Origin: Bacteroidales bacterium
GTDB taxonomy: Bacteria > Bacteroidota > Bacteroidia > Bacteroidales > F082
Direction: 5' to 3'
Assembly: GCA_024400195.1 (NCBI GenBank)
Contig: JAKSNC010000018.1
Location: 1 to 36,412, forward strand
DNA length: 36,412 nucleotides
A model generated the notes under the pieces. It was not told the origin of the DNA. It searched no databases and was given only the letters and a program-made list of their open reading frames with translations. Of this stretch, positions 21,282-23,630 are shown one piece after another. Positions within the stretch are counted from its first letter, which is position 1. The number at the start of each line of letters is the position of its first letter. The position numbers and the translations under genes are program-made.

Positions 21282-21362
21282 CATTATTTTTGCAACTAAA
21301 ATCAAACAATCACTATGGCAGGAAACAGCAATCTCGGCGCAGCAAAATCGGCAAAAAACGAT
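21282..21362 (+). repeat. 81-bp direct repeat, copy B (promoter plus methyltransferase start)
   Basis: This copy is attached to the intact methyltransferase gene. It holds the -7 box TATTTTTG at 21285-21292, 23 bp before ATG 21315, and the first 16 codons. It is 80/81 identical to 18754-18834. Confidence 0.95.
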
Positions 21363-22457
21363 GAGTTCTACACACAATACGCCGACATAGAAAAGGAAAT
21401 AAACGCATACATTGAATACAATCCCGATGTGTTCCGTGGCAAGACGGTGCTTTTGCCTTGCGACGACCCCGAATGGAGCAACTTCACCAAATATTTTGCC
21501 CAAAACTTTGAAACACTTGGCCTGAAAAAGCTTATCAGCACCAGCTATGCAGTAGAAAGCAAGCAGTATAAAGAAGGCTATCAACTGACGCTGTTCGAAG
21601 AACAAAGTCCGAACTTTGACGAGAACAAGACGCGCAAAAACGGCAAAATATTCGTGCTCGACCACGATACGAACAACAGCGGACGCATAGACATAAACGA
21701 CCTTGAATGGCACTATCTTGAAGGCGATGGCGACTTCCGCAGCAACGAAGTCAAGGCCTTGCGCGATGAGGCTGACATTATTGTTACCAATCCGCCATTT
21801 TCGTTGTTCCGCGAGTTTTTGGCTTGGATTGTTGAAGCCGACAAGCAGTTTGTGATTATCGGCAATATGAATGCCATAACCTACAAAGAAGTTTTCCCGC
21901 TTATCAAAGAAAACAAGTTGTGGTTGGGGAACGGTTTTAATGCAGGCAATGCATATTTCAGAATTGTAGGCGAAAACCGAGATTACGCAAGTGGCGTTTT
22001 TGATGAAAACACAGGATTAGTCAAGTTTAGAAATTGTTGTTGGTTTACAAATATGGAACATGGTCGTCGCCATCAACTACTTTCGCTTATGACAATGGCT
22101 GACAACATTAAATTCAGCAAGCACAAGGAAATCAAAAACGGCACGTATTACAAATATATAAATTTTGATGCGATTGAAGTGCCATACGGAGATTCAATAC
22201 CCAGTGATTATAAAGAATCTATGGGGGTTCCAATTTCATTCTTAGACAAGTATAACCCAGAACAATTTGAAATATTAGGCATTGATGGTGGTGACATGGG
22301 TGTTGGTTATGGCGTAGGTGCTAACTTGACAAAAGATGAATGTACAGCATTGTTTAACGAGCACAAAGGCTTCAGAAGAGGGAAACTTTGTTATCGCGAT
22401 GAAAATGGGGAACTACAAATGTGCTATAGACGTATTCTAATCCGCAAAAAACAATAA
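21315..22457 (+). CDS. Adenine-specific DNA methyltransferase, EcoRI family
   Basis: A 380-residue N6-adenine methyltransferase resembling M.EcoRI. The N-terminus (NLGAAKSAKNDEFYTQYADI) and the segment FRGKTVLLPCDDPEWSNF match the EcoRI_methylase family, where the latter forms part of the SAM pocket. The catalytic motif is NPPF at 159-162 within ADIIVTNPPFSLFREF, followed by FVIIGNMNAITYKEVFPLIK and KLWLGNGF. The C-terminus contains FLDKYNPEQFEILGI and ends RRILIRKKQ. Length fits a complete family member. The nuclease gene starts 3 bp after its stop, as in a restriction-modification operon. The recognition sequence cannot be read from the protein. Confidence 0.92.
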   Translation: MAGNSNLGAAKSAKNDEFYTQYADIEKEINAYIEYNPDVFRGKTVLLPCDDPEWSNFTKYFAQNFETLGLKKLISTSYAVESKQYKEGYQLTLFEEQSPNFDENKTRKNGKIFVLDHDTNNSGRIDINDLEWHYLEGDGDFRSNEVKALRDEADIIVTNPPFSLFREFLAWIVEADKQFVIIGNMNAITYKEVFPLIKENKLWLGNGFNAGNAYFRIVGENRDYASGVFDENTGLVKFRNCCWFTNMEHGRRHQLLSLMTMADNIKFSKHKEIKNGTYYKYINFDAIEVPYGDSIPSDYKESMGVPISFLDKYNPEQFEILGIDGGDMGVGYGVGANLTKDECTALFNEHKGFRRGKLCYRDENGELQMCYRRILIRKKQ

Positions 22458-22460
22458 AAC

Positions 22461-23630
22461 ATGAAAACAACATTACGCACCGACATTACAATAGCCGACA
22501 TCTGCAAAGGCTTTGTATATAACGAATTGGAGGGCAAAGGACTGTTCGGGCTTTCAGGCTCGCTAACCATTCAGCCCGAATACCAGCGCAACTACATTTA
22601 CGCCGACGGCAAACGTGATGTGGCCGTGATAGAATCGATACTTGCCGGCTATCCGTTGGGGCTTATCTATTTCAACGAGCCAACCGAAGGCAAATACGAA
22701 GTTCTCGACGGCCAGCAGCGCATAACCTCGTTTGGACGCTACGTTACGGGCAAGTTCGCCATTAAGATTGACGGCATGGAGCAGTATTTCAGCGGTTTGG
22801 CAAAAGACCAACAGGAAAAGATACTGCAAACTCCGCTTACCATCTACATTTGCCAAGGCGAAGAAAAGGAGATAAAAGACTGGTTCAAAACCATCAACAT
22901 TGCAGGCGTTCCACTCAACCAGCAGGAATTGCGCAATGCCATATTCAGCGGAGAATTTGTCACGCTTGCCAAAGCCGAATTCAGCAACAGCCAAAACGCC
23001 AACGTGCAGAAATGGAGTGCTTACATTAAAGGCACAACCATCAGGCAGGAGATATTGGAGTGCGCTTTGGATTGGGTGTCGGCGGCACAAGGCAAAACCA
23101 TCGACAACTATATGAGCGAGCACCGCCACGACACGAACATAAACGAACTAAAGGCATACTTTACCAGCGTAATCGATTGGATTAGCAGCGTGTTTAACGA
23201 TGTGGAAAACGAAATGCGCGGCTTGGAATGGGGGCGTTTGTACGAAACCTATCACACAAGGGCCTACAATCCCGATGAAGTTCAGAGCCGTGTTCGTGCC
23301 CTCTATGCCGATGAGTTCGTAAAGAAACGCAGCGGCATATTTGAGTATATTCTCGGCGGCGAGCAAGACAAACGTTTGCTTGAAATTCGTGTTTTTGAAG
23401 AATCTGTAAAGAAAGCCAAATATGCACAGCAGAAGAAAGAAGCCGAGGAAAAAGGCATTTCGAACTGTCCGTTGTGTGCATGTGGCAGCAATGCCAACCA
23501 GACAAAAATCTGGAAATACAGCGAGATGGATGCCGACCACGTAACAGCATGGAGTCGCGGCGGAGCAACCGACATCAGCAACTGCGAAATGCTTTGCCAG
23601 ACCCACAACCGCAGCAAGGGCAACAAGTGA
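22461..23630 (+). CDS. DUF262 NTPase-HNH nuclease, likely restriction partner of the methyltransferase
   Basis: A 389-residue protein. The N-terminal DUF262 (ParB/Srx-like) domain has IQPEYQRNY, SILAGYPLGLIYF and the nucleotide-binding motif DGQQR at 83-87. The C-terminus is an HNH nuclease: Cys pairs in NCPLCACG (~336-343), DADHVTAWSRGG with Asp359-His360, and NCEMLCQTHNRSKGNK as the closing zinc/catalytic segment. DUF262-HNH architecture is known from GmrSD-type modification-dependent enzymes and from SspE of phosphorothioation defence, although those carry DUF1524-type HNH. Here it is paired with an EcoRI-type methyltransferase 3 bp upstream, suggesting restriction guided by methylation status. 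Whether it cuts unmodified or modified DNA cannot be told from sequence. Confidence 0.88.
   Translation: MKTTLRTDITIADICKGFVYNELEGKGLFGLSGSLTIQPEYQRNYIYADGKRDVAVIESILAGYPLGLIYFNEPTEGKYEVLDGQQRITSFGRYVTGKFAIKIDGMEQYFSGLAKDQQEKILQTPLTIYICQGEEKEIKDWFKTINIAGVPLNQQELRNAIFSGEFVTLAKAEFSNSQNANVQKWSAYIKGTTIRQEILECALDWVSAAQGKTIDNYMSEHRHDTNINELKAYFTSVIDWISSVFNDVENEMRGLEWGRLYETYHTRAYNPDEVQSRVRALYADEFVKKRSGIFEYILGGEQDKRLLEIRVFEESVKKAKYAQQKKEAEEKGISNCPLCACGSNANQTKIWKYSEMDADHVTAWSRGGATDISNCEMLCQTHNRSKGNK

Follow-up and report, generated by a model that had tools for sequence, protein, structure and literature searches.

An EcoRI-family methylase and a DUF262-HNH protein as a candidate restriction-modification pair with exchangeable, putative specificity segments in the methylase

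The window analysed here, a 36,412-nt stretch of DNA from a Bacteroidales bacterium (contig JAKSNC010000018.1), carries two adjacent genes on the forward strand, designated M and R below. They encode an EcoRI-family adenine-N6 DNA methyltransferase and a protein combining a DUF262 (GmrSD_N) domain with a C-terminal HNH domain, respectively, and are discussed as a restriction-modification (R-M) system in which the methylase may also determine the target of the nuclease. The pair had been proposed as a candidate defence system in an initial annotation made from the sequence alone, and what was reported there of the open reading frames (ORFs), their coordinates, the 3-nt gap between them, the EcoRI-type methylase and the union of DUF262 with a classical HNH was confirmed by the ORFs and by Pfam. 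The features of the two genes are as follows:

21315..22457, + strand: M, EcoRI-family adenine-N6 DNA methyltransferase, 380 aa
21789..21800, + strand: NPPF catalytic motif of M, residues 159-162
21930..22040, + strand: V1, first hypervariable segment of M and putative target-recognition segment 1, residues 206-242
22275..22430, + strand: V2, second hypervariable segment of M and putative target-recognition segment 2, residues 321-372
22461..23630, + strand: R, DUF262 (GmrSD_N)-HNH protein and putative nuclease, 389 aa
22707..22721, + strand: DGQQR motif of the DUF262 domain of R, residues 83-87
23481..23627, + strand: HNH domain of R, residues 341-389, including Asp359-His360, with a pair of cysteines (336/339) just N-terminal to it

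M matches PF13651 EcoRI_methylase over residues 6-379 (E 1.6e-125) and the PADLOC profile MTase_II (PDLC03297) over residues 4-341 (E 1.7e-86); its NPPF motif is invariant in 20 aligned Ms and is found in 174 of 175 Ms overall. R matches PF03235 GmrSD_N at residues 36-162 (E 3.7e-21), PF01844 HNH at residues 341-389 (E 5.8e-8) and the PADLOC profile REase_II (PDLC03418) at residues 20-389 (E 5.1e-95). The DGQQR motif is present in all 181 of 181 R homologs, and in an alignment of 27 members DGQQR, C336, C339, D359, H360, N374, C379 and N383 are all invariant; the DGQQR and Asp359-His360 to which attention had been drawn earlier thus lie where they had been placed, the latter within the HNH domain. 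DUF1524 was not reported in R by the Pfam search at E<=0.01, and neither a helicase motor nor a Res-type endonuclease was found in it, GmrSD_N and HNH alone passing the Pfam cut-off. Likewise, at E<=0.01 neither R nor M has a Pfam or PADLOC match to any Type I family (HsdS, HsdM, HsdR). The structure matches of R are to HNH domains, with a weak DUF262 match to 7p9k (E 0.054), and M gave no convincing solved relative (best E 0.13, to unrelated enzymes).

The two genes are steadily found together. In a survey of 295 genomes of the window's order, in which pairing was counted by eye from the tables, R-like matches (E<=1e-10) occur in 46 genomes and PF13651 in 38. Of the 32 R matches at E<=1e-35, 30 have a PF13651 match at a distance of no more than 1.3 kb on their contig, and the remaining two are located where a contig ends; this count excludes 19 weaker R matches, mostly partial ones to the DUF262 domain, among which G111:C34 and G113:C1 also have PF13651 within 2.3 kb. 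Two further scans were evaluated for the best 80 of at least 484 R relatives in a collection of species genomes and the best 80 of 184 in viral contigs, and in 76 loci of either set (152 of 160) M is encoded on the strand of R, at most about 1.3 kb away; in one viral contig, L245, it is located downstream of R. In seven of the eight unpaired loci R lies at most 660 nt from the upstream contig end, and in the eighth, L117, it ends 122 nt before the other one. L117 was the sole candidate for a solitary R and counts as no more than that, its contig ending where M could lie in the arrangement of L245. Conservation of the pair had been named in the initial annotation as a check, with rare co-occurrence speaking against the proposed defence unit; rare co-occurrence was not seen, and the association of M with R is not a matter of chance.

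The pair is also carried by mobile elements. At E<=1e-20, R matches were found in 50 of 72,556 plasmid records and in five of 50,697 phage records, and in a Flavobacterium phage M adjoins R. In E. coli, R was detected in six of 5,426 genomes at blastn sensitivity, accompanied by ccdAB in all six and by genes of conjugative elements within the examined flank in five. In one of the E. coli loci, L145 from strain 2015C-3121, IS1A interrupts R, and the protein accession given for M in the annotation is also that of the M of L142. The R-M interpretation offered earlier is thus supported by the steady pairing, by the MTase_II and REase_II profiles, and by the presence of the pair in plasmids, as cargo of E. 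coli mobile elements, in a phage and in viral contigs. PF13651 occurs without R nearby in eight of the 38 genomes of the order survey; six of them were examined, G084 and G239 being left out, and three of the six have the EcoRI endonuclease family PF02963 adjoining M (E<=1e-149). It is also worth noting that in another locus, L170 (G242:C3), a PF13651 methylase is located beside an AAA_15/AAA_21 ATPase in place of R or EcoRI, a different partner for this methylase family.

The alignment of pairs was based on 106 sources, of which 101 had both genes and 93, with full-length M and R, were used; the longer open frame was taken for the M of L062. Two segments of M, both following the NPPF motif, stand out by their variability: V1, located between the landmarks WLG and WFTN, and V2, between PEQFEI and YxRILIR. 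Among the 75 pairs with an R at least 60% identical to that of the window, the mean identity in 15-aa windows falls to a minimum of 0.17 in V1 and 0.14 in V2. In R of the same pairs it is never lower than 0.40, and no matching hypervariable segment is present. When types were defined as single-linkage clusters at 45%, a threshold chosen by us on which the type counts depend, 20 V1 types and 38 V2 types were distinguished in the 93 pairs, in 78 combinations. Pairwise identities of V1 are bimodal, with peaks near 20-30% and 70-80%, and those of V2 form one peak at 10-30% with a thin tail reaching 100%. The two segments vary nearly independently of each other (Mantel r 0.028, p 0.0585) and are hardly correlated with R (V1, r 0.063, p 0.0095; V2, r 0.058, p 0.022), while the core of M is correlated with R at r 0.63 over the 93 pairs. 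In comparisons in which R is at least 60% identical, both V1 and V2 are below 35% identity in 2222 of 2622 cases. The M of the window, with one full V1 and one full V2, is a typical member of the family.

Several closely related loci differ precisely in these segments. The E. coli loci L140 and L142 have R proteins 98.2% identical and the first 150 residues of M identical, yet both V1 and V2 are replaced, with marked falls of DNA identity around the two segments. L140 and L143, on the other hand, have the same V1 and V2 but an R of only 96.4% identity, less similar than that of L140 and L142, and therefore R does not follow V1 and V2. In the pair L005 and L067, with R proteins 98% identical, M is the same up to V2 save for four residues and the V2 segments are unrelated (20%). 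Moreover, in L197, L210 and L236 a single R is accompanied by two Ms that differ in both V1 and V2. These arrangements bear on the explanation that the pair is an ordinary Type II R-M system, in which R would recognise a site of its own without the help of M, and M would protect that site. The matches of both proteins to PADLOC Type II profiles and the two-gene organisation with no separate S subunit are as expected for such a system, but identical or nearly identical R proteins paired with unrelated V1 and V2 segments are not.

The exchange of V2 can be followed within one element of Phocaeicola massiliensis. In strain DSM 17679 (L092) as compared with TSDC17.2 (L149) a 397-bp segment is inverted (98.0% identity), between flanks of 2.7 kb and 6.1 kb that are 99.6% identical. 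As a result, the two M proteins are identical over 329 residues and then continue into two unrelated V2 segments, while R shows no difference in 390 residues. The arms of the inverted repeat sit on the QFEILG codons, that is, at the start of V2, and a gene of a PF00589 tyrosine recombinase, which probably makes the inversion, is located 3' of R, about 2 kb from the inverted segment. L092 and L149, together with L202 and L204, represent one element lineage. A stand-alone R with a fixed site would be expected to meet an unprotected chromosome as soon as V2 flips, and to cut it; this is the strongest argument for R taking its target from M, and it speaks against an ordinary Type II system.

Silent inverted V2 cassettes, each seen in one state, are also present in L150 (the L007 locus), L111, L202, L204 and L218, with two direct V2 cassettes in L111 besides the inverted one, as well as in three viral contigs with lengths of 80-345 kb (L238, L239 and L245). 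A homolog of the recombinase (62-100% identity) was found in L092, L149, L007, L111, L202, L204 and L218, all seven of which have an inverted cassette, and in L199, whose contig does not reach M. Another homolog (77%), in G295, is located next to an R close to where the contig ends, and the stretch (L167) does not include M. Among nine weaker homologs, the two regions examined, L168 and L169, contain neither M nor R. In the three viral contigs the inverted cassette is associated with 18-21-bp inverted repeats, and no recombinase of the Phocaeicola type was found in their examined flanks. The distribution of silent inverted cassettes suggests that the same exchange of V2 takes place in further members of the Bacteroidales and in viral contigs of large size. 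A different kind of switching is possible in L062, where Glu-Arg runs in all three frames at positions 5400-6000 point to a (GA)n tract within V2, beside two further direct V2 cassettes in tandem; the length of the tract would set the reading frame, and slipped-strand events could switch the C-terminus of the methylase.

If V1 and V2 read DNA, methylases with a dedicated sequence-specific endonuclease are expected to keep both segments fixed. This was examined in 16 stretches that encode an EcoRI-type endonuclease. Their sources are members of the window's phylum, enterobacteria, Staphylococcus, Leuconostoc, Rhodococcus and viral contigs, and among them is a copy from an E. coli plasmid whose annotation names EcoRI (L267); 15 Ms were used, L271 having given no M match. 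L262 and L263 have identical V1 and V2 letters and may be one virus, and the EcoRI matches of L180 and L264 are partial. The 15 Ms have a single V1 type and a single V2 type, and both segments are shared in 105 of 105 comparisons, with lowest identities of 0.62 and 0.71. In the DUF262-linked set of 160 Ms, which includes 67 of the 80 viral ones, both are shared in only 46 of 6149 comparisons within the same range of core identity. Among the DUF262-linked Ms, only that of L017 has high identity to the EcoRI kind in both V1 and V2; the specificity of M.EcoRI is GAATTC, and the M of L017 is predicted to methylate the same sequence. Two plasmids met in this survey are worth mentioning: L271, from Acinetobacter schindleri, has an EcoRI-family endonuclease (44% identity) beside a methyltransferase with no match to the M profile, and in L270, from Rhodococcus, a further DUF262 protein is encoded 0.8 kb away from the EcoRI pair.

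The fixed segments of the EcoRI-linked Ms, together with the natural swaps and the inversion, weigh against the independent Type II explanation, which is not preferred and appears very improbable. They also bear on the proposal that V1 and V2 are not recognition segments at all and vary for another reason, e.g., to escape phage anti-restriction proteins, while M and R share a constant target. The conservation of R alongside variable V1 and V2 is what this proposal would predict, but it does not account for the constancy of both segments next to a dedicated EcoRI endonuclease, and the location of V1 and V2, C-terminal to the NPPF motif, is that of the recognition domains of such methylases; it can be considered the least probable of the explanations weighed here.

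The interpretation preferred, with a probability of roughly three in four, is that of a two-gene R-M system in which M would be both methylase and specificity subunit, and R a DUF262-HNH effector taking its target from M. According to this interpretation, which is drawn from comparison of sequences, M would methylate adenine at a site read by the exchangeable segments V1 and V2, and R would have no site-matching specificity of its own, the information on the target being supplied by M. Most likely R would bind M at an unmodified site and then nick or cut the DNA in a nucleotide-dependent manner. V1 and V2 are traded between loci, and in P. massiliensis V2 is exchanged with the silent cassette by inversion, which would create a new target with R unchanged. 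The use of nucleotides would probably be driven by DGQQR, which is described as an NTP-hydrolysis motif in DndI in the available excerpts of PMC11662687. Of the two routes to a target considered in the initial annotation, recognition through the methyltransferase is therefore favoured and reading of DNA by R itself is disfavoured, on the basis of the swaps, the inversion, the near-independence of R from V1 and V2, and the EcoRI control. The suggestion made there that the nuclease responds to foreign methylation gained no support.

A related explanation would make R a reader of the mark rather than of the methylase: M would put sequence-specific N6-methyladenine (6mA) on self DNA, and a sequence-blind R would be regulated by its presence or absence, in the manner of SspE and DndI with phosphorothioate. 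6mA from other methylases is common, and a sequence-blind reader would discriminate poorly; for this reason R reading M itself is ranked ahead of R reading the mark, which is regarded as unlikely. The near-indifference of R to V1 and V2 is well accommodated by mark reading. The correlation of the M core with R (r 0.63) is expected of contact between the two proteins, though equally of simple co-inheritance, and the C-terminus of R is a classical HNH and not DUF1524. The precedent for mark reading comes from two DUF262 proteins, SspE and DndI, which sense phosphorothioate DNA; the latter also contains an NTPase with DGQQR (PMC8713573 and PMC11662687).

Several observations weigh against the interpretation that R is guided by M. 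The correlations of V1 and V2 with R, although tiny, exceed those of shuffled data (p 0.0095 and 0.022), and among the windows of R the highest partial r is 0.074 with V1 type identity (p 0.03) and 0.066 with that of V2 (p 0.01). The link is detectable but explains less than 1% of the variance, and a weak connection of the segments with R is possible. Both states of the inversion were seen in a single element lineage only, and self-comparison revealed no inverted-repeat pair at the inverted cassette of L111. A search of two ORF sets yielded no ORF in which M and R are fused; an open frame of 702 aa in G255 was not recovered there as a fusion. Finally, we know of no member of the family with a determined methylation site.

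A more far-reaching version, whose chances are put at somewhat less than even, is that the pair constitutes a distinct type of R-M system, in which a nucleotide-dependent DUF262-HNH nuclease is directed to its target by an EcoRI-family methylase. V1 and V2 would each read about half of the site, and most of their combinations would give asymmetric sites methylated on one strand; R would therefore have to check two sites, as in Type III systems, which would explain its DUF262 domain. The inversion of V2 and the cassette arrays would then act as a phase-variable methylome switch in gut Bacteroidales and large phages.

Among the known systems, Type III Mod/Res is similar in having exchangeable recognition in the methylase subunit, a constant nuclease partner, two genes and, as expected here, the use of nucleotides. 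The parts differ: M belongs to the EcoRI family and is not Mod, R is a DUF262-HNH protein and not a helicase-nuclease as Res is, two segments are involved, and V2 inverts. Thus, provided that V1 and V2 are the recognition segments, as is probable, variability of recognition in the methylase combined with a conserved partner nuclease is found here as in Type III. Movement of Type III target recognition domains (TRDs) is known in Helicobacter pylori, according to excerpts of PMC3983042. The EcoRI R-M system (PF13651 with PF02963) has a methylase of the same family, and the EcoRI kind of V1 and V2 occurs with DUF262-HNH as well (L017), but the EcoRI endonuclease is a different protein from R, and its 15 Ms have one type of each segment. 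Inverting Type I systems resemble the pair in their two recognition segments, inverted repeats, locus-encoded recombinase and several specificities per system (hsdS; PMC7394358, in excerpt), and differ in that HsdS, HsdM and HsdR are absent here and the exchanged part is the C-terminus of the methylase. GmrSD, BrxU, SspE and DndI share with R the N-terminal DUF262 and a C-terminal HNH-type nuclease, and DndI also DGQQR, whereas R has the PF01844 HNH instead of DUF1524 and, in addition, a steady EcoRI-family methylase partner. In the single-chain Type IIG/IIB enzymes the two activities are joined; M and R are separate, with no fused ORF in the two sets.

PADLOC already places the pair under Type II through PDLC03418 and PDLC03297, and the methylase is indeed of a Type II family (PF13651, E 1.6e-125). 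The label nevertheless implies an R with its own specificity, which seems disfavoured here: judging from the sequences, R does not change with the recognition part of M, an identical R being combined with two states of V2. The excerpts of PMC7394358, PMC3983042 and PMC13076061 describe specificity switching of Type I hsdS, movement of Type III mod TRDs, and ON/OFF phase variation of Type III mod with limited Type II cases. No description of an EcoRI-family methylase with DUF262-HNH as an M-guided system, or with shuffled or inverted specificity, was found in the titles, opening parts of abstracts and excerpts of the open-licence PMC papers listed, REBASE being outside the search, and for NsnA, a further PADLOC name matched by R, nothing relevant was among the literature matches listed. 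The pair itself is thus not unknown; the novelty lies in the apparent location of its specificity and in the fact that this can be switched. It may represent a new variant of R-M, with a Type III-like logic built from unrelated parts and switchable by inversion.

If this is correct, a widespread pair matching Type II profiles would be a re-targetable system, one nuclease serving many sites through two short segments of the methylase, and an example of methylase-guided restriction with no helicase subunit. Switchable methylomes would extend beyond the Type I and Type III systems usually named. The 20 V1 and 38 V2 types in 93 pairs would provide a natural parts list for reading and predicting specificities, with one anchor in the EcoRI methylase, whose V1 and V2 pair reads GAATTC.

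In the window, remains of a second M are present upstream of the pair:

21278..21314, + strand: leader of M, common to the eroded upstream copy, with TATTTTTG at 21285-21292
18750..18877, + strand: eroded second M copy, in which the leader and first codons are joined directly to the PEQFEI region found ahead of V2
19809..19827, + strand: possible 3'-end remnant of the eroded M copy

The copies share an 85-nt repeat (21278-21362 and 18750-18834, 98% identity), and TATTTTTG in the leader resembles the Bacteroidota -7 box. The sequence at 18833-18877 matches 22238-22282 at 82%, the eroded copy has a tblastn match to an M C-terminus (E 8e-7), and the putative remnant is identical to 22438-22456 in 18 of 19 nt (94.7%, E 0.001); it is short and located beyond a hicAB-like module, and a chance match is conceivable. 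The eroded copy fits a lineage that formerly had two Ms, like L197, L210 and L236. No complete second V2 cassette and no tyrosine recombinase motif of the kind searched for were found in the window. The genome (1.84 Mb in 54 contigs, the window being contig C10) has no PF13651 match besides M and encodes a single further DUF262 protein, a 607-aa open frame with GmrSD_N at G000:C6:23132-23758 (L001), possibly an ordinary GmrSD-type enzyme.

The region between the two M copies contains further genes. At 18998-19635 lies a module presumably of the hicAB type, a name assigned from the character of the sequence with no family match behind it; its hicA-like frame hits a TGA at 19083-19085, and the hicB-like ORF that follows (19174-19635) has weak helix-turn-helix matches. 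An AAA_14/DUF4143 ATPase is encoded at 19931-21196 (PADLOC PDC-S01, E 3.2e-97); ahead of it the 23-nt sequence TTTATCGAATATAAACGATAAAA, of operator-like appearance, occurs twice without any difference, at 19840 and at 19873.

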